From: Natronosalvus rutilus
GTDB lineage: Archaea; Halobacteriota; Halobacteria; Halobacteriales; Natrialbaceae
NCBI RefSeq assembly: GCF_024204665.1
Contig: NZ_CP100355.1
Coordinates: 744,001-808,000 of the forward strand
Direction: 5' to 3'
Length of the DNA stretch: 64,000 nucleotides
The position numbers and the translations under genes were made by a program. Shown piece after piece: positions 25,699 through 35,071 of the stretch. The notes beneath the pieces are model-generated. The model did no database searches, was not told the origin of the DNA, and saw only the letters and a list, made by a program, of their open reading frames with translations. Within the stretch, counting starts at the first letter, position 1. Each line of letters starts with the position of its first letter.

Positions 25699-27513
25699 TC
25701 AGGGCGCGTAGTAGTACTCGCCCTCGCGCTTCTGTTGCCTGTCGAGCTGGGAGTCCGGCTTGTTGATCCGCGGGCGCGAAGTCCGCTCGTCCCGGCGGAA
25801 CGTCACCTCGAGGTTCGCCAGGAACTCGTTCATGCCGCCGCGCATCGACTGGGGGGTCCCCGCGCGACCGTGGACGGCCGGCTCGCCGTCGAAGACCATC
25901 AGGCGGTCGGCCAGCAGGTCGATCATGTAGATGTCGTGGTCGATGACCAGGACGGTAGCGTCTTGCTGTTCGGCGTAGCGCCGAATAGCTCGCGTGGCCT
26001 GGACTCGCTGTTCGACGTCGAGGTGAGCCGAGGGCTCGTCGAGTAGATAGAGGTCAGCCGAGTCGGAGAGGCAGGCCGCGATAGCAACCCGCTGGCGCTC
26101 CCCGCCCGAGAGGTCCGAGAGGCTCTGTTCCATGATCCGCTCGAGTTGGAGCGGCCCCGCGATTTCGGTGTTCCAATACGAGGAGCCGAACTGGTCGGTG
26201 ATCGAAGCGAGAAACGCGTCGACGCGCATCGGCTGGTCGATGGTGACGTACTGGGGCTTGTAGGATATCTCGAGGTCCAACTCGGCCTCACCTTCGTCGG
26301 GTTCGAGCGCGCCGGTCAACAACTTCGCGAAGGTCGACTTCCCGATGCCGTTCGGCCCGACGACGCCGAGCACCTCATTCTTCCGAATTTCGCCGCCCTC
26401 GACCTTGAGCGAGAACTCACCGTCGCCGTAGGACTTGACGAGATCGGGGTACTCGACGAGGGTGTCCCCGCGGGTGGCGCTCCGGGGGGCGTGTTCCTCG
26501 AACTCGATCGGATTCGGCCGGATCCGCATGTTCTCGTTCTCGAGGTAGCCCGCGAGGTACTCGTTGATGCCGTTACGGACCGACTTGGGTGTCGTGATGA
26601 CACCGTAGGCGCCGGGCTCACCGTAGGCGACGTGGAGGGTGTCGGCGAGCAAGTCGAGGACGGCGAGGTCGTGTTCGACCACGAGCATCGATTTCCCTTC
26701 GTCCTCCGCGAGTTCCCGGATCAGGCGGGCCGCGGTGACTCGCTGCCCAATGTCGAGGTAGGGCGTGATCTCGTCGAGGAAGTAGAAGTCCGTGTCGCGA
26801 GCGAGCGTCGCCGCGAGCGCTACGCGCTGGAGTTCCCCGCCGGAGAGATCGTCGATCGATTGGTCCATCACCGGACCGATCGACAGCCGTTCGACGAGGT
26901 ACTCGAGGGCGTCGCGCTCGTTCGTCCGCTCGAGCAGTTCGCGGGTGTTGCCGTCGAACTGTTTCGGGATCTGGTCGACGTACTGGGGTTTGCGCGCGAC
27001 CGAGAGATCCCCGTCGCGGACGGCCTCGAGGTAGTCCTGGATCTCGGTACCGCGGTAGGCCTCGAGCACATCGTCCCAGCCCGGTGGATTCTCGAAGCGC
27101 CCGAGGTTGGGCTCGAGTTCGCCGGCCAGGATGCGGACGGCGGTGGTCTTCCCGATGCCGTTGGGTCCGAGGATGCCGGTCACCCGGCCTTCCTGTGGAG
27201 CGGGGAGGCCGTACAGCGAGAAGGCGTTCTCGCCGTAGCGGTGGGCGGGGTCGTCCTGGAGTTCCTGTGGCAGGTTGATAATCTCGATAGCGTCGAATGG
27301 GCACTTCTCGACGCAGATGCCGCAGGTTTCGCCCAGACAGATCTCTTCGGAGATGCGGATCTGCTCGGGTTGGCCCTCGTCGGCCTCTTCGCCCCGGAGC
27401 GTGATGCACTCCTTGCCGGTGCGGTTTGGTGGGCAGTAGTTCTTGCACTCGTAGTTACACCGGTCGGGCTGGCACCGATCGAGGTCGACGACGGCGATGC
27501 TGTCTTTGGCCAT
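25699..27513 (-). CDS. rli: ABCE1/Rli1 ribosome-recycling ATPase
   Basis: 604 residues. N-terminal ferredoxin-like domain with two Cys clusters (CQPDRCNYECKNYCP, then CLGETCGICVEKCP) for two 4Fe-4S centres. NBD1: Walker A GPNGIGKTTAV, signature LSGGELQR, Walker B FLDEITPYLD. NBD2: Walker A GPNGIGKSTF, signature LSGGERQR, Walker B LLDEPSAHLD. Family knowledge: splits 70S ribosomes with aRF1/Pelota after termination. Starts 1 bp after the stop of the EMC6-like gene, so the two form an operon. Confidence 0.95.
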   Translation of the reverse strand: MAKDSIAVVDLDRCQPDRCNYECKNYCPPNRTGKECITLRGEEADEGQPEQIRISEEICLGETCGICVEKCPFDAIEIINLPQELQDDPAHRYGENAFSLYGLPAPQEGRVTGILGPNGIGKTTAVRILAGELEPNLGRFENPPGWDDVLEAYRGTEIQDYLEAVRDGDLSVARKPQYVDQIPKQFDGNTRELLERTNERDALEYLVERLSIGPVMDQSIDDLSGGELQRVALAATLARDTDFYFLDEITPYLDIGQRVTAARLIRELAEDEGKSMLVVEHDLAVLDLLADTLHVAYGEPGAYGVITTPKSVRNGINEYLAGYLENENMRIRPNPIEFEEHAPRSATRGDTLVEYPDLVKSYGDGEFSLKVEGGEIRKNEVLGVVGPNGIGKSTFAKLLTGALEPDEGEAELDLEISYKPQYVTIDQPMRVDAFLASITDQFGSSYWNTEIAGPLQLERIMEQSLSDLSGGERQRVAIAACLSDSADLYLLDEPSAHLDVEQRVQATRAIRRYAEQQDATVLVIDHDIYMIDLLADRLMVFDGEPAVHGRAGTPQSMRGGMNEFLANLEVTFRRDERTSRPRINKPDSQLDRQQKREGEYYYAP

Positions 27514-27514
27514 G

Positions 27515-27838
27515 TTAGAAGCTCGCGCCGGTGCTCAGCATGATTCCCCAGGTGATGAACCAGAACGAAAAGGTCATCAGCCCGATGAACAGGACGTGTT
27601 TGGGTCCGAACTCCTCAGTGTCGTAGAGGCCGGTCGCGGGCAGGGCGATGACCTGCAGGGCGATGAGCCCGAAGACGAGGAGGTAGGTGAGCGGTTCGGT
27701 CGCCGCGGCGTCGACGGCTTCCCCGGCGGTGAGTATCGAGGAGCCGATGGCGGCGCCAACCCCGGCGAGACAGGCGACGGCTGTCACGCCGATCGAGCGA
27801 ATGTGCTCGCGTCGATCGCTCATCGTTGCGGTTGACAT
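27515..27838 (-). CDS. EMC6-like membrane protein
   Basis: 107 residues from the ATG at 27836-27838. Three hydrophobic segments: GVTAVACLAGVGAAIGSSI, LTYLLVFGLIALQVIALPA and VLFIGLMTFSFWFITWGIML. It looks like the small EMC6-like archaeal proteins related to a subunit of the eukaryotic ER membrane insertase. A TTTTTAA box about 22 bp upstream (27858-27866) is a fitting TATA element. It is immediately upstream of ABCE1. Confidence 0.75.
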   Translation of the reverse strand: MSTATMSDRREHIRSIGVTAVACLAGVGAAIGSSILTAGEAVDAAATEPLTYLLVFGLIALQVIALPATGLYDTEEFGPKHVLFIGLMTFSFWFITWGIMLSTGASF

Positions 27839-27957
27839 ACTACTGAGTCTGTTTTGGGCGTTAAAAAGCCGTTCGCATTGTCCGGAAAGCCCTAGCATGG
27901 GCGAGCGCAACCGTACACCCGATTTAATTCTATTCCGACAGTGACGGTCAGTCCAGA

Positions 27958-28893
27958 TTACGGCTCGCAGTTCGTCGATTCACTGTCACAGGAGATAGTG
28001 ACGGTTACGCTATCGGACTCGCCGTTCTTGCCGTAAAACGTCATATCAATCTCTGCGTCGTCCATCGAAACCTCCTCGCCGCTCTCGTTGACGAACGCGT
28101 CGATCGTCACGGTGGCAAGATTCCCAGTCTCGAGGGTAACTCGTTTCCCGTTTCCGTTGTCAAACTCGACGATCTGATCTCTAATCTCCCAGGGACTAGC
28201 TGATGCCGTTTCGGTATTGCCGGCTCCGCCGTTGACGATTACTTCTCCAGCTTGATTCCCTTGCGAAATCTCGGTCGCCGCCGTCGATGTCCTCGTAACC
28301 GAGACTTCTGTGATGTCGATTTTACCGCCGGTGTTATTGACCGTAAACTCGACGACGCCTCCCTGAACGGAATCGACGCTGGTGACCTCCAGCCCCGGCG
28401 GATCGTTGTTTCCGTTACCGCCGCCGCGACAGTTCACGTCGATTTCCGCGCCTGTGGTTCGCTCGAGGTCGACGGTCACGCTGCTCGAAGCCGTCAGATC
28501 GACGGTGAGCGTTCCCTGATCCTTGAGATTTGACGTTCCACACGTCACGACGACGGCGTAGTCACCGTTGGTGCCGTCGGTCTCGACCTGGGCATCAAGG
28601 TTCGTCTCCTGGCCGTTGAACCTAACCTCATTAATAGTCACGTCGTTAACGTCGAACAGTCCAGCGTTATCATCGATGTGGAAGACTTCGCCCCGCTGAT
28701 TATTCGAGGGGACAACGTCTGCGCTCCCCGCAGCCGAGTTATCGATGACACCAAGTAACCCGTTCGGGTCTGAGGCTGTGTTCACGGAGACGCCGCGATC
28801 AGCGCTAATCGTCGTGAATCCGAAGACCGGTCCAGCCAGTAATACTGCGCCTATGACCACGAGGACGACCGCGAGTTTTCCGATCCCATCCAT
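27958..28893 (-). CDS. Secreted DUF1102-type protein, large form (putative fibre subunit)
   Basis: 311 residues. Signal peptide over residues 1-25 (KLAVVLVVIGAVLLAGPVFG) without twin Arg. The mature start GFTTISADRGVSVNTASD lines up with AFSQVEATRDVTVNTTGD of the protein at 29755-30246 (pattern F-[ST]-x-[IV]-x-A-x-R-x-V-[ST]-V-N-T-x2-D), so both are DUF1102-type. The rest is beta-rich and Asn/Thr/Gly-rich with few charges besides Asp/Glu. A GGGNGNN hinge near residue 157 separates two halves. Operon with the DUF7344 gene (2-bp gap). Fibre role inferred from the signal-peptidase neighbour. Confidence 0.65.
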   Translation of the reverse strand: MDGIGKLAVVLVVIGAVLLAGPVFGFTTISADRGVSVNTASDPNGLLGVIDNSAAGSADVVPSNNQRGEVFHIDDNAGLFDVNDVTINEVRFNGQETNLDAQVETDGTNGDYAVVVTCGTSNLKDQGTLTVDLTASSSVTVDLERTTGAEIDVNCRGGGNGNNDPPGLEVTSVDSVQGGVVEFTVNNTGGKIDITEVSVTRTSTAATEISQGNQAGEVIVNGGAGNTETASASPWEIRDQIVEFDNGNGKRVTLETGNLATVTIDAFVNESGEEVSMDDAEIDMTFYGKNGESDSVTVTISCDSESTNCEP

Positions 28894-28895
28894 GG

Positions 28896-29480
28896 TTATT
28901 GCGGGCGTTCCCCCTCACCCAAGCGGTTCCGTCGGTTCTCCAAGACGTGCACCACCGCCGACACGGCGAACAGACCGACGACGGCGGTCGCCCAACCTAG
29001 CGTTGGCACCGTCTCTGTGGGGACGACCTCGAACCAGAGTCCGGCCATCACCGCGGCGGCGACTGCCGAGAGGCCGAGGTAGTAGACGCCCCAGGGGATC
29101 GAATCACCGGGGACGATGTCCAGGTACACCTCGAGCTGTTCGGCTTCCTCAGTGAGTTCGATCGCTCGAGCGTCGAACTCGACCATTCCCGCGCGCTCGA
29201 GCGCCGGCAGGTGCGTCTGTTGCAGCGACGTGTACACTCGCTTACGTTCGGCGGAGGTGAGTCCCTGTACCTCTTTCTCGAGTTCCCAGGCGGCGACCTG
29301 TTCGGCCAGCGCACCGAGTTCGACGGGTTCGTCGGTCTGCTTGAGGTGGTGGATGGCGTACCGTCGACGGTGATTGCTCAGGAGGTCGAAAATCTCGCCT
29401 CGAGTGGGGCCGGCTATGTTTCCGTCGCTCTCGGCCGTCCCAGCTTCGTTCTCGCCTACCTGTTCGGTAATCGTCGACAT
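28896..29480 (-). CDS. DUF7344-type winged-helix protein with two transmembrane helices
   Basis: 194 residues. Residues 28-115 are a winged helix (IFDLLSNHRRRYAIHHL, VYTSLQQTHLPALERAGMVE), the layout of DUF7344 haloarchaeal regulators. Two hydrophobic helices follow (GVYYLGLSAVAAAVMAGLWF and LGWATAVVGLFAVSAVVHVL), so it would be a membrane-tethered DNA-binding protein. It is divergent from the 29755 gene with a 274-bp intergenic region and heads a two-gene unit with the large DUF1102-type protein. Likely regulator of the locus (inference). Confidence 0.75.
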   Translation of the reverse strand: MSTITEQVGENEAGTAESDGNIAGPTRGEIFDLLSNHRRRYAIHHLKQTDEPVELGALAEQVAAWELEKEVQGLTSAERKRVYTSLQQTHLPALERAGMVEFDARAIELTEEAEQLEVYLDIVPGDSIPWGVYYLGLSAVAAAVMAGLWFEVVPTETVPTLGWATAVVGLFAVSAVVHVLENRRNRLGEGERPQ

Positions 29481-29711
29481 TGGCCCCCCGAAATCTATCT
29501 AGAATTACTGAACTAAGGCTACATAACGTTTGTTGCCGTCGCGGGTAGATCTAACACAAGTGTGTCTTTGCCTCACATACCGATCCCTCAGACTGCTGAT
29601 TTCGGCTGATCAAGCCCGTCTTGAAGCTTCGATTGGTCGGCCAGAGCCCCTTCTGGCGACCTAATACAAAGGGGGTGGCCTCGAGTGAGAGAGGTATGAT
29701 CACGTCGGTAC

Positions 29712-29730
29712 CCGGCGCCTACGGTGCCGG
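29712..29730. promoter_or_regulatory. Stem-loop upstream of the DUF1102 gene
   Basis: CCGGCGCC and GGTGCCGG form an 8-bp stem with one imperfect pair and a three-base TAC loop, ending 24 bp before the ATG at 29755. Could be a leader-RNA structure or a protein-binding dyad. Confidence 0.35.
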
Positions 29731-29754
29731 CGGGGATCGAACGGAGACCATACA

Positions 29755-30246
29755 ATGAGACTCAACAGACGCAACGTGCTTGTCGGACTGGGAGCGATCG
29801 TAGCTGGCGGCGGCGGTGCACTCGCAACGGGTGCGTTTAGCCAAGTAGAAGCAACGCGTGACGTTACAGTAAATACGACTGGAGATGCTTCGGCGTTGCT
29901 GTCGTTAGATCTTGACACATCATACAACGGGATTAGCGATGGTGATGGCGATGCAATCGTTATTCAGTTCGACGATATAAACGATGAAGCAGTAACTAAA
30001 TTCAATAATGCATTCACTGTTACTAATAATGGCAGCGAGGACGTCAATTTTAGCATCTCAGCTGACGATGTCCCCAATGCGTTGACTTTTGAGGATAGCG
30101 AGGGCAATGATATTGCCGGGACTGATCAATTACTCACCAAAAATGGCGGTAATATCGTCCTTTCGATTGAAGTCGATCTTGATAATAACGATATCCCCAC
30201 CGCCGAAGAAACGATAACGTTCAACGCGACATCTACGGCAACCTAA
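29755..30246 (+). CDS. Secreted DUF1102 protein with Tat signal (putative major fibre subunit)
   Basis: 163 residues. N-terminus MRLNRRNVLVGLGAIV has a twin-arginine motif and a Gly-rich hydrophobic core, cleaved probably before AFSQVEATRD. The mature part is a single small beta-sandwich-type domain of about 135 residues (VIQFDDINDEAVTKFNNAF, FTVTNNGSEDVNFSISA). Codon use is noticeably AT-richer than in neighbours, suggesting transfer or special selection. SipW-linked TasA/camelysin proteins are similar in size, secretion and neighbourhood, which is the basis for the fibre proposal. No homology search was possible. Confidence 0.7.
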   Translation: MRLNRRNVLVGLGAIVAGGGGALATGAFSQVEATRDVTVNTTGDASALLSLDLDTSYNGISDGDGDAIVIQFDDINDEAVTKFNNAFTVTNNGSEDVNFSISADDVPNALTFEDSEGNDIAGTDQLLTKNGGNIVLSIEVDLDNNDIPTAEETITFNATSTAT

Positions 30247-30370
30247 TCGCCTAGATCATATCCGCTACCGGGCATATGTATTCTCCTCAATTTTTCACGT
30301 GTGTTCCCTGTAGAAATCTGCAACGATTTGGGTCCTGCCAAGATTCGACAGAAATTAAAAACATTATCTA

Positions 30371-31489
30371 ATGAACGTCAATCTTTCCGTGATCTGTGCG
30401 GTACTCGCCCTTGCGTTAGCCGTGCCCACTGCTGCCGTCTCCCTCGAGCCAGCCGACACAACCTCTTCCATCGAACTCGATGCCTCGAGCCCCTACGCCA
30501 CCATCGAAAATGGCCAGATCGAGCTCGACTTCGAGCGACTCAACGCCGACGCGGTGACGACGGTCGATGAGGCGTTCACCGTACGTGCCATCGACGAGGA
30601 CGTCGACCGCATCTGGCTCTCGGGCACCGACGGCGTCACCTTCTACCGGAACGGCGATCCTAGAGACGAGGTAACCGCGAGATCGCCGCTCGAGCCCGCC
30701 ACCGGCCACTCGATTACGGTTGGCGTCTCTATCGACACCCACGAGGCGGGGGAGGGAACGGAGTCGTTCACGATCCACGTGCGGTACGACGATAACGAGG
30801 ACGACGAAACCGACCCCGACCCGCCGACGCTCGAGCGCGTCACCGTCTCGGACACCGAGGTGACCGTCGGCGAGACGATCACGGTCACGGGTATCTACCG
30901 GGGGGGATCGCAGTCGATGGCGACGATGGTCGGGTTGACCGTCGACGACATCGTTGTCAGCCAGAAACGGGTCTTCGTCTTCGGCGGCGAGAACCGGTCC
31001 GTCTCCTTCGAGCGGACGATGGACGCCCCCGGCACGTACGAGGTCGGCATCGACGGCCGGACGCACACGGTGACGGTCACCGAACCTGCATCCGGCGAAC
31101 CGGCGCCGAATATGACGGTGACGGGGGTCGATCTCGATCGACCCGAAACGACGCCTGGAGAGCCAATTTCGGTCACGGCGACCGTCGAGAACGCGGGCAA
31201 CGCGACGGGTGAGCGCACACTCGAGTTCGCCGTCGGCGGATTCGTCGTCGAGACGGAGCGGGTCGAACTCGCACCCGGCGAGACGCGACAGGTCGAGTTC
31301 GAACGATCGTTCGCGGACCCCGGACGCTACGCGCTGGCGCTCGAGGGCGAGGAGGTGGGTACCGTCACGGTCGTCGGATTGCCGGCGATTGCGGCGGTCA
31401 CGGCCGCGCTCCCCTCGCGTTCGACGGCGGCGCTCGCGCTCCCGGTCACGCTGGGCGTCGGGTTCGTCGTCCGGCGGCGGCGAGCGTGA
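30371..31489 (+). CDS. Membrane-anchored surface protein: DUF1102-like N-domain plus CARDB-type domains
   Basis: 372 residues. Signal peptide 1-24. Residues 40-140 parallel the 29755 product strand for strand (IELDFERLNADAVTTVDEAF against IVIQFDDINDEAVTKFNNAF, then FTV, EDV, GVTFY, and a closing ESFTIHV). Two CARDB/Ig-like domains follow (about 153-238 and 243-335; APNMTVTGVDLDRPETTPGE, ETRQVEFERSF). The C-terminus has hydrophobic stretches and ends VVRRRRA, a membrane anchor with a cytoplasmic Arg cap. This fits an anchoring or capping subunit of a fibre built from DUF1102 subunits (inference). Confidence 0.7.
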   Translation: MNVNLSVICAVLALALAVPTAAVSLEPADTTSSIELDASSPYATIENGQIELDFERLNADAVTTVDEAFTVRAIDEDVDRIWLSGTDGVTFYRNGDPRDEVTARSPLEPATGHSITVGVSIDTHEAGEGTESFTIHVRYDDNEDDETDPDPPTLERVTVSDTEVTVGETITVTGIYRGGSQSMATMVGLTVDDIVVSQKRVFVFGGENRSVSFERTMDAPGTYEVGIDGRTHTVTVTEPASGEPAPNMTVTGVDLDRPETTPGEPISVTATVENAGNATGERTLEFAVGGFVVETERVELAPGETRQVEFERSFADPGRYALALEGEEVGTVTVVGLPAIAAVTAALPSRSTAALALPVTLGVGFVVRRRRA

Positions 31490-31568
31490 GACGAGCAGTT
31501 AAGACGATTCGAATGCGAGACAGGGAAAACACGACCGTGTTAGGAGCGAACTCGAGGGAGCGACGACG

Positions 31569-32738
31569 ATGAACGAGACGTCGATAGCCAAACAGGCGGC
31601 GATGGGGCTGGTGGGGCTCGTCGTGGTACTGCTGGTGCTCGGCCAGGTGCTAGGCCAGCCGATACTGCTCGGTTACGTCGCGACGGGGAGCATGGAGCCG
31701 TCGCTCTCCGCCGGCGACGGATTCGTCGCGGTCCCCAGCGCGGTAACCGGCGCGCCCGAACCCGGCGACGTCGTCGTCTTCGAGGCCGAGACGTTACACG
31801 GAGGTGGGCTCACGACCCATCGAATCGTCGCCGAGACCGACGAAGGGTACGTGACGCGGGGCGACGCCAACCCGTTCACCGACCAGGACGGGGGCGAGCC
31901 ACCGGTCACCGAGGGGAAGATCGTCGCCGAGGCCTGGCAGGTCGGGGGGTCGGTCGTCCGGGTTCCGCACCTGGGAACTGTCATCATGAGCGTCCAGGGG
32001 CTCGTCGGGGCCGTCTTCGGTCTCCTGGCTGCGCCGCTCGGAATCACGGCGGCCTTCGACGCCGAGGGGACCGGTGCCTTGCTGGTGGCCCTCGGGGTCG
32101 GCCTGCTCGGGGTCGGCTTGTTGCTCGAGCGCGTCGGCGTTGCCGACCGGCGAACGGCGCGACGAACCAGTCGTCAGAACGTGATCGGCCTCTGGTCGGC
32201 GCTGTCGGCCGTCGTCGTCGTGCTCGCCCTCTTCGCGACCGCGGCGATGGTGATCCCGGCCGGCGGAACCGCGTACGAACTCGTGAGTACCGACTCGCCG
32301 ACCGACGACCCGCAGATCGTCGCCCCGGGGGAGACGACGACGCTCACGCGAACGATCGACAACAGTGGCTACGTCCCAGTCGTCGTCATGCTCGACGCGC
32401 CACACCCCGCCGTCGATGCCGAGCCGCGGGCGACGACGGTCGGCAGTCGCGACACCGCCGAGGTCGCGCTGTCGATGACGGCACCGGAGACGACGGGGAG
32501 CTACACTCGCGATGTCGTCGAGAGTCGATACCTCCTCGTCTTGCCACCGACGCTGCTCGTCTGGCTCCACGACGTCCACCCGTTCGTGGCCGTCGGCGCG
32601 GTCAACGTCGCGATCGTCGCCGTCGCCGTCGGTCTCGTGTTTGCCCTCTTCGGCACCGGCGATCTCCGGATTCGGACGCCCGGCTCGCACGTCCCGCTCT
32701 CGAGGCGACTCGAGCGCCTGCTCGAGAAGTGGTTGTGA
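31569..32738 (+). CDS. sipW: Signal peptidase I, SipW-like (S26B), with long C-terminal extension
   Basis: 389 residues. A first hydrophobic helix (MGLVGLVVVLLVLGQVLG) precedes the catalytic Ser in ATGSMEPSL (Ser41). The second catalytic residue is His, not Lys: TTHRIVAET (His84), followed by TRGDANPFTD. Ser-His is the ER/archaeal/SipW-type dyad. After the catalytic domain (to about 140) come further hydrophobic helices and an outside beta-rich domain (about 230-325), not part of ordinary archaeal peptidases. Dedicated to the neighbouring secreted proteins by analogy with SipW-TasA. Confidence 0.8.
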   Translation: MNETSIAKQAAMGLVGLVVVLLVLGQVLGQPILLGYVATGSMEPSLSAGDGFVAVPSAVTGAPEPGDVVVFEAETLHGGGLTTHRIVAETDEGYVTRGDANPFTDQDGGEPPVTEGKIVAEAWQVGGSVVRVPHLGTVIMSVQGLVGAVFGLLAAPLGITAAFDAEGTGALLVALGVGLLGVGLLLERVGVADRRTARRTSRQNVIGLWSALSAVVVVLALFATAAMVIPAGGTAYELVSTDSPTDDPQIVAPGETTTLTRTIDNSGYVPVVVMLDAPHPAVDAEPRATTVGSRDTAEVALSMTAPETTGSYTRDVVESRYLLVLPPTLLVWLHDVHPFVAVGAVNVAIVAVAVGLVFALFGTGDLRIRTPGSHVPLSRRLERLLEKWL

Positions 32739-32910
32739 TCGCCCATCGTCCACCCAGATCGGTGGACCGACGGCCACTACTGTTATAGTCGATGAACGAC
32801 GACCTATCGTATCGCGTGACTTTCCGCACTGTGCTAGATGGGGGATTGGCCGACGGCGAGTCACAGCAAGCGGCGGGGACCGACGGGATCGATGGGAGGG
32901 AGGAGACGCC

Positions 32911-34071
32911 GTGACGAACACGCCACGACTCGACCTGCTGATCGCCAGATCCGGCCGGCCGATCCTGATCGCCCTGCTCGTGATCGGCACGATCGCCCTG
33001 CTCGCGACCGGCTGGGTCGTCGCGAATCCGTCGACGACCACGACCACCCAGGAAGTCGATCGCCAGACGGTCTCGACGCAGGTCGACACGGAAGCCGTGG
33101 TCGTCCAAGACGGTCTCTGGGAAGCGGGCACGGTGCTCGAGGACAACCCCGCGTACGTGATCAACGCCTCACCGGAACTCGAGGTCGTCGCCGAGACGGC
33201 GGTCCCGAGCGACGAGACGAGCCTCGAGCACGAGATCGTCCTCAGGTACGCGGCTTCGCGCAACGACGAGGTGTTCTGGGAGTCAGAACGGGTGCTGGCG
33301 GCCGAGGAACCGACGATCACGGACGGACAGGGCGTCACCAGAGCGTCGGTCGACGTCCGGGAGGTCCAGGACAGACGTGAGGAACTCAGGACCCGCCTCG
33401 ACGGGGTCGGCACGGTCGACCTCTCGTTGATCGTTCGCACGAGCTACGATACGGGGACGCACGTCGGCGAGCACGCCCCGTCCACCCCGTTCGTCGTCAC
33501 CGAGCGGAGCTACTACCTCGAGGACCACCCCGAAGAATCGGATCCGAACCCGGTCACCCAGACCGTCGAGACGACGGATCCACCCAGTTCCGCGCTGATC
33601 GGCGCCCTCCTGATCCTCACGGTGGGGTCGTTCGGCGGGGCCGCGTTCGTTAACTCCCGGTCCGACGTCGATATCGACCGAGCACGGCAGGCGATTCACG
33701 AGAACCGCTACGCGGAGTGGATCTCGCGGGGCTCGCTCCCGATGTGGATCGGCGACGAACACGTCTCGCTCGACACGCTCGAGGACGTCGTCGACGTCGC
33801 CATCGACACAAACGAGCGCGTGATCCACGACCGGAGCCGCGGCCTGTTCGCGGTCGTCAGTGACGGCGTCGTCTACTACTACAGCGACCGCGGGCTCTGG
33901 GAGGAGACGGCGTGGCCGGACTTAGACCTCGAGGAGCGGGCGGCCCCTGCAGACCTGGTCCCACCCGGTGACGGCGACGGATCAACGGCCGGACCGACCG
34001 AAAGCGATACGGAGCCGCCGTTCGAGAACTTGCCGGACCCCGAGGACGACGACGCCTGGAACAACCTGTGA
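32911..34071 (+). CDS. DUF5305 membrane protein
   Basis: 386 residues from a GTG at 32911; no ATG fits in this frame near the family N-terminus. One hydrophobic helix at about 15-35 (GRPILIALLVIGTIALLATG), a large outside domain (about 40-225) with DGLWEAGTVLEDNPAYVINA and RSYYLEDHPEESDPNPV, a second helix (SSALIGALLILTVGSFGGAA) and a cytoplasmic C-terminal domain with an acidic end. DUF5305 proteins commonly sit next to SipW-type peptidases in haloarchaea, so it probably belongs to the same secretion or assembly unit. Function unknown. Confidence 0.75.
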   Translation: MTNTPRLDLLIARSGRPILIALLVIGTIALLATGWVVANPSTTTTTQEVDRQTVSTQVDTEAVVVQDGLWEAGTVLEDNPAYVINASPELEVVAETAVPSDETSLEHEIVLRYAASRNDEVFWESERVLAAEEPTITDGQGVTRASVDVREVQDRREELRTRLDGVGTVDLSLIVRTSYDTGTHVGEHAPSTPFVVTERSYYLEDHPEESDPNPVTQTVETTDPPSSALIGALLILTVGSFGGAAFVNSRSDVDIDRARQAIHENRYAEWISRGSLPMWIGDEHVSLDTLEDVVDVAIDTNERVIHDRSRGLFAVVSDGVVYYYSDRGLWEETAWPDLDLEERAAPADLVPPGDGDGSTAGPTESDTEPPFENLPDPEDDDAWNNL

Positions 34072-34314: not shown

Positions 34315-34611
34315 ATGAGTGAGACTGACGGGGAGGACATCACGGATTTGCCACCGAGTGCGAAGCTGGTCTACAAAGTTCTCGAGTACGACGGCCCGTT
34401 GACCCAGAAACAGATCGTCGAGGAGTCGATGCTGTCTGCGCGGACGGTCAGGTACGCCCTCGAGCGCCTCAGCGACATCGGCACCGTCGACGAGAACATC
34501 TACTTCGCGGACGCGCGCCAGAGCCTCTACCGGATCACGGAGGCCGAACCGGTCGCGGCCGACGGCGGCAGTGGCGAGCCGGCGAGCAAGGACGCCTGCT
34601 GTGCGGAGTGA
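34315..34611 (+). CDS. Winged-helix transcription regulator (MarR/TrmB-like)
   Basis: 98 residues. Residues 10-70 form a winged helix (PPSAKLVYKVLEYDGPLTQ, IVEESMLSARTVRYALERL, GTVDENIYFADARQSLYR as the wing). The C-terminus KDACCAE contains a Cys pair that could sense redox or metal. Small single-domain proteins of this type are common haloarchaeal regulators. It lies downstream of the fibre locus but has its own promoter, so a link to that locus is uncertain. Confidence 0.75.
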   Translation: MSETDGEDITDLPPSAKLVYKVLEYDGPLTQKQIVEESMLSARTVRYALERLSDIGTVDENIYFADARQSLYRITEAEPVAADGGSGEPASKDACCAE

Positions 34612-34660
34612 CCTGTCGCGAGTCGATAGAATATTCGTCCTCGAGTGACCGAATCGAGAC

Positions 34661-35071
34661 ATGGACAAGGAGACGCTGCCGGAGTGGGCGTGGCTGTTTC
34701 TGGGGTTGATGGTTGCCGCGGTCGTCGCCAACCTGGCCAGCGTAGTGTTGCAGATCTCGACCGACTGGCGGATGGCCATCATCGTCACCGCGATGGCGCC
34801 GGTCCTGGTCTACGTCGGCGTCTGGTACGACCCGGACAGGCAGTACTACTGGGAGCAGTCGCGGGCGAAGATTTTCGGCGACGTCGGCTTCCTGGTCGTG
34901 GGAACGGCCGTGGGTGCCGGCATCGCCATCGCCCTCACGATCGACCTGATCGGCTCGCAGTTCCTGCGGGACCTGGTCTCCATGCTCGTGGGCTTTCTCA
35001 CCGGCTGGGCCCTCTTCTGGTGGCGTAACCCGACCCTCTACCGTCCCGACGACGACGCCAGCCCGAGGTAA
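34661..35071 (+). CDS. Four-helix membrane protein of unknown function
   Basis: 136 residues with hydrophobic segments WAWLFLGLMVAAVVANLAS, MAIIVTAMAPVLVYVGVWY, VGFLVVGTAVGAGIAIALT and LVSMLVGFLTGWALFWW. Five bp separate its stop from the next gene start, so it is probably co-transcribed with the IMPACT protein. No recognised family. Confidence 0.65.
   Translation: MDKETLPEWAWLFLGLMVAAVVANLASVVLQISTDWRMAIIVTAMAPVLVYVGVWYDPDRQYYWEQSRAKIFGDVGFLVVGTAVGAGIAIALTIDLIGSQFLRDLVSMLVGFLTGWALFWWRNPTLYRPDDDASPR

Follow-up and report, generated by a model that had tools for sequence, protein, structure and literature searches.

Relation to described filament systems

Tat-fimbriae ("tafi") are thin, Tat-exported haloarchaeal filaments with TafA as the core component, and the Tafi pilus was first described in 2025, according to passages of PMC12687288 that cite Galeva et al. 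2025 (iScience 28:111793). NCBIfam holds models named TafA, TafC, TafE and TafF, and a cryo-EM entry, "Structure of Natrinema sp. J7-2 Tafi pilus" (PDB 9P0A), was released in July 2025; our literature search found no paper naming this entry. Beta-sandwich pilins also make up the Pyrobaculum bundling pili (AbpA, PDB 7UEG), which PMC9674648 describes as TasA-like, and the Sulfolobus thread 0406 (PDB 7PNB). For TasA of the Bacillus TasA-TapA-SipW system, N-terminal donor-strand exchange is known (PMC9674648), and an aromatic residue occupies P2' after the cut (PMC10269814).

In the window (the whole 64,000-nucleotide stretch of DNA that was analysed), all six open reading frames of the locus were found at 27958-34071 (Table 1; products are named below by the lowest coordinate of their gene). 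These six genes very likely constitute a Tat-fimbria (Tafi pilus) locus in the single-pilin layout of Natrialbaceae, orthologous to the locus of the solved Natrinema pilus, because all six are homologous, their order is conserved, and the pilin fold, the signal and the cleavage motif are conserved as well, as computed from the sequences. Over 214 residues, the 9P0A pilin has the same sequence as the product of L069:5893-6534 of Natrinema gari JCM 14663, likewise a member of the Natrialbaceae. The L069 locus consists of TafC-like and DUF7344 genes on one strand, followed by pilin, TafF-like, peptidase and DUF5305 genes on the other, i.e., it matches the window in gene content, order and orientation, with identities of 32, 69, 49, 41, 61 and 48%, respectively. 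The two systems also share a homologous pilin with a Tat-type signal and a GA/F cut, encoded by a single pilin gene.

The preliminary description was aware of no comparable haloarchaeal system that had been worked out, a statement that the Tafi pilus overturns. Its proposal of a fibre module with its own peptidase holds insofar as the genes form one co-conserved locus with an AbpA-like fold, but the nearest relative is Tafi and not TasA. It is well supported that the cluster is a further example of a known system rather than a new kind, and that it is real, conserved and functional-looking. Judged from its sequence, the surface fibre of this salt-loving Natrialbaceae archaeon would most likely be a Tafi pilus made from six adjacent genes. 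A widespread, unannotated haloarchaeal gene module is now tied to a solved filament, and the peptidase, DUF5305 and DUF7344 genes are indicated as parts of it.

Table 1. Features of the putative Tafi locus, with window coordinates
Feature	Coordinates	Strand	Size	Basis
TafC-like minor pilin, candidate tip protein	27958..28893	-	311 aa	TafC profile, hhalign, position
DUF7344 winged-helix membrane protein (2 TM), candidate local regulator	28896..29480	-	194 aa	Pfam E 9.2e-29
Divergent intergenic region, candidate shared promoter/regulatory region	29481..29754	.		sequence read
Tafi-type major pilin (very probable)	29755..30246	+	163 aa	homology to 9P0A pilin, NCBIfam profiles
Tat-type signal peptide MRLNRRNVLVGLGAIVAGGGGALATGA, predicted cut A27/F28	29755..29835	+		direct reading; GA/F conserved
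TafF-like membrane-anchored protein, candidate base/anchor	30371..31489	+	372 aa	hhalign, CARDB, TM
Dedicated Ser-His (Sec11/SipW-like) signal peptidase with conserved C-terminal extension	31569..32738	+	389 aa	profiles, alignment, tree
DUF5305 membrane protein	32911..34071	+	386 aa	Pfam E 1.3e-48; start corrected to GTG 32911

Loci of the type described by Galeva et al. 2025, with TafA, TafC, TafE and TafF (L032-L036, L038, L039 and L103/L126), share TafE, TafC, TafF, peptidase, DUF5305 and DUF7344 homologues with the window, the Haloarcula D gene being TafF according to NCBIfam. However, the window lacks TafA, the major subunit of these Haloarcula-type loci, and its gene order differs. The TafC of L033 carries LamG and a twin-arginine signal, whereas 27958 has neither, and comparison of TafF with 30371 revealed the N-domain alone in common. 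TafA scored over its cut-off in only 7 of 146 Halobacteriales genomes.

Across these 146 genomes, 102 of 116 DUF5305 genes lay no more than 8 kb from a 31569-like peptidase gene, and conversely 102 of 113 peptidase genes had a DUF5305 gene at that distance (about 90%); at least 82 of the 113 were accompanied within 8 kb by a TafE-like gene among the matches listed. Both families occurred together in 82 genomes, one without the other in 6 and 2, and neither in 56, which as raw counts that ignore phylogeny is far above chance; the locus of the preliminary description is co-conserved across haloarchaea. Among 63 full-length loci with a called peptidase, a subunit gene was present in 58, DUF5305 in 54, DUF7344 in 53, a TafC-like gene in 51 and a TafF-like gene in 43; the division between subunits and TafC-like proteins in these counts is coarse, as iterated profiles drift among TafA-, TafE- and TafC-like proteins, and the underlying table, built on a filtered ORF set, omits a few loci (e.g., L082, L110, L112) whose peptidase was uncalled. 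The divergent gene arrangement was kept in most Natrialbaceae loci compared. A homologous cluster is also present in Haloferax (L089/L092). Large clusters, in which several consecutive genes for TafE-like Tat subunits lie next to a 31569-like peptidase and DUF5305, were observed at G100:C1:2801168-2810897, G115:C3:336027-350840, G072:C1:253318-260858 and G144:C14:93606-102714, possibly multi-subunit relatives of Tafi. A haloarchaeal-looking Tafi-like locus (L118, contig PULR01000059.1) is filed under a Mollicutes bacterium MAG and is probably mis-binned.

The probable pilin gene and its competing assignments

When the 29755 protein alone was used as query, phmmer retrieved the 9P0A pilin with E 4e-18. 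The Natrinema pilin is longer (215 against 163 aa) and 49% identical to 29755 over 116 aa. A profile built from the mature sequences of 55 relatives of 29755 matched a single solved structure with clear significance, chain 9p0a_C "Pilin" (E 2e-20). The family assignment rests on these sequence comparisons, since the fold by itself gives a pilin-class match. In the fold comparison proposed in the preliminary description, the predicted structure of the mature chain (mean pLDDT 81) was best aligned by VIA-align with 9P0A (Z 8.8, 117 residues, 31% identity), and AbpA came second at Z 8.4, tied within 1 Z; the Sulfolobus thread filament (Z 6.8) and E. coli FimA (Z 6.7) followed, and identity to AbpA and the thread protein was about 10%. 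Foldseek, whose E-values were weak, ranked 9p0a slightly behind FimA variants and the thread filament, and TasA was absent among the fold matches listed, which rules out nothing.

The twin-arginine signal of 29755 begins with MRLNRRNVLVG, and 98 of 103 related subunits have RR, the Tat mark being scored across loci as a simple RR pattern. Downstream of this signal, the cleavage-site pattern G-[TS]-G-A/F-[ST] (the slash marks the cut) is conserved: Phe is found at P1' in 99 of the 103 relatives, preceded by GA in about 97 of the 99. Of the 215 residues in the 9P0A chain, the model covers 188 and ends at residue 215, so the mature Natrinema pilin would start at F28, the same position as predicted for 29755. 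The predicted mature N-termini of 29755 (FSQVEATRDV) and 27958 (FTTISADRGV) display the common pattern F-[ST]-x-[IV]-x-A-x-R-x-V that had been read from the window earlier. The monomer model of mature 29755 has low confidence over its first ~20 residues (blocks 51 and 55), as a donor strand would be expected to show, and this stretch together with the AbpA/thread/FimA fold class suggests N-terminal donor-strand exchange.

Based on NCBIfam profiles, 29755 scores best to TafE (101 bits, cut-off 155), with 26 bits to TafC and about 45-47 bits to TafA (44.9 in its own genome), below the TafA cut-off of 190. The TafE model is named "adapter" and canonical loci have a separate TafA, which would favour a reading of 29755 as an adapter with another protein forming the main rod. 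We consider this very improbable: TafE is also the top-scoring model (77 bits, below 155) for the Natrinema pilin of the solved filament, which occupies the same locus position and likewise fails the TafA cut-off, so this failure defines the TafA subtype only. Moreover, the own genome holds no second TafE- or TafA-profile match, the TafA profile finding 29755 itself, which leaves 29755 as the sole pilin candidate. From these two observations we strongly infer that the TafE-like protein of the single-pilin layout serves as the major pilin and not as an adapter, and 29755 is very probably such a pilin. The TafE "adapter" equivalog (NF052522) is the best NCBIfam match for the pilins of both single-subunit loci (L069:5893-6534 and window 29755-30246), and automatic names derived from it would be misleading.

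The locus also resembles the Bacillus system, where a dedicated Ser-His signal peptidase accompanies a fibre protein that has a beta-sandwich fold and Phe close to the cleavage site. A TasA/camelysin-SipW system for biofilm fibres in haloarchaea would accord with the SipW-profile match of 31569, with the second rank of the TasA-like AbpA by fold, and with the aromatic residue right after the cut, which in TasA stands at P2'. Such a system is nevertheless very improbable here, as no pilin sequence relation to TasA was detectable, no Pfam camelysin match was obtained for 29755 (E<=1) or its 55 relatives (E<=0.01), and no TapA homologue was identified. In addition, the pilin has a Tat-type rather than the Bacillus export signal, the window peptidase bears a long C-terminal extension, and 9P0A is far closer in sequence. 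To our knowledge, TasA has no Tat-type signal. The TasA/camelysin family label was therefore dropped. The DUF1102 name used in the preliminary description is a loose fit: Pfam DUF1102 did not match 29755 or 27958 and reached E 0.0014 on 30371, below the cut-off, but it did match 11 of the 55 relatives of 29755.

The least probable reading is that the locus makes no filament and its beta-sandwich products are secreted in soluble or S-layer-associated form. In its favour, no filament has so far been seen in this organism, and Ig-like folds and CARDB are common in haloarchaeal surface proteins (the own genome has many CARDB-like matches); against it, the orthologous locus encodes a filament of solved structure and the conserved free Phe-led N-terminus suits strand exchange.

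Putative accessory subunits, peptidase and membrane proteins

In the putative minor subunit 27958, the N-terminal hydrophobic segment lacks RR, and cleavage is predicted before F26. The N-terminal beta-sandwich domain spans mature residues ~20-133 and was modelled with pLDDT >90 across most of its length, whereas the C-terminal part had low model confidence and no confident fold; a fold search with the model returned generic Ig-like matches only, with Z below 8 and nothing specific. NCBIfam TafC matched residues 8-58 only (E 1.8e-5, 24 bits), hhalign aligned the N-terminus to the pilin family at 97.1%, and the gene sits behind DUF7344, the position of TafC in canonical taf loci. The N. gari TafC-like protein differs from 27958 in its C-terminal part, a beta-solenoid. 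Since the N-part is pilin-like while the C-domain varies among relatives, we infer with moderate confidence that 27958 is a tip subunit with an exchangeable adhesive domain. Among TafC-like proteins that have the N-domain in common, the swapped C-terminal domains comprised LamG_3/Laminin_G_3 (L033:9043-10182), a bactofilin/FapA-like beta-solenoid (L055:4780-5538, L069:857-1903) and the C-domain of window 27958-28893, which has no assigned fold.

The anchored protein 30371 is composed of a signal, a pilin-like N-domain, CARDB (Pfam E 1e-10) and one C-terminal TM. Its N-domain aligned by hhalign to the pilin family at 97.8% (E 9e-13) and to the N-domain of the TafF family at 98.8% (E 9e-17), in agreement with the related domain noted for it earlier, and the simplest role for this protein would be the base or anchor of the fibre.

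The peptidase 31569 matched sigpep_I_arch (E 7e-13) and SipW (E 1e-7) among NCBIfam profiles, and SEC11A with E 0.003. Alignment of 15 homologues revealed that Ser41 and His84 are invariant; a Ser-His pair within an ER/archaeal-type peptidase domain places 31569 with the SipW/Sec11 type. The C-terminal extension, consisting of several TM segments and an Ig-like stretch, was retained in all 15, including those of TafA-type loci, so that both peptidase features of the preliminary description were confirmed. In a maximum-likelihood tree of 94 peptidases, the window sequence grouped with the N. gari locus in a Natrialbaceae clade of 30 rows with support 97/90, and TafA-bearing loci fell into a different clade. 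The own genome has few signal-peptidase matches, 31569 being one; a stronger archaeal-model match at C1:1922139 is probably the housekeeping signal peptidase. A signal-peptidase profile also has a weak third match (28 bits) just past the window end (G000:C1:808047-808196), in a 399-aa open frame.

The two remaining membrane proteins were likewise recovered, the winged-helix protein now as DUF7344. Translation of DUF5305 most likely begins at GTG 32911, which has GGAGG ahead of it, the ORF from 32512 being too long. Their roles in the locus, given below, are guesses from position.

Candidate assembly route

Taken together as a Tafi pilus, the locus would work as follows. The 29755 pilin, given its twin-arginine signal, would be exported via the Tat pathway and then presumably cut by 31569 between A27 and F28. 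The freed, flexible, Phe-led N-terminal strand could complement the beta-sandwich of a neighbour, as in TasA, AbpA and thread filaments, and the fibre would grow by donor-strand exchange. With its pilin-like N-domain and membrane C-terminus, 30371 may anchor or start the fibre, and 27958, whose C-domain is swapped between species (LamG, beta-solenoid, other), may be the tip or adhesive subunit. DUF5305 could help assembly in the membrane, and DUF7344 could control both divergent operons. How pilins exported by Tat, a carrier of folded proteins, could assemble via strand exchange thus becomes a testable question.

A more speculative possibility, which we regard as unlikely, is that 31569 doubles as an assembly platform. 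Its extension, with membrane segments round an Ig-like ectodomain and perhaps with DUF5305, would hold the Tat-exported pilin, cut it at the A/F junction and feed the freed strand into the last subunit's groove; in this way, cleavage would drive donor-strand exchange without an ATPase or usher. The retention of the extension in 15 of 15 aligned homologues is consistent with such a platform.

The locus is flanked by ABCE1/RLI-like and EMC6-like genes on one side (window 25699-27910) and by a small HTH gene and a membrane protein gene on the other (34315-35071). Locus L049 has the same flanks as the window, which suggests an old chromosomal position.
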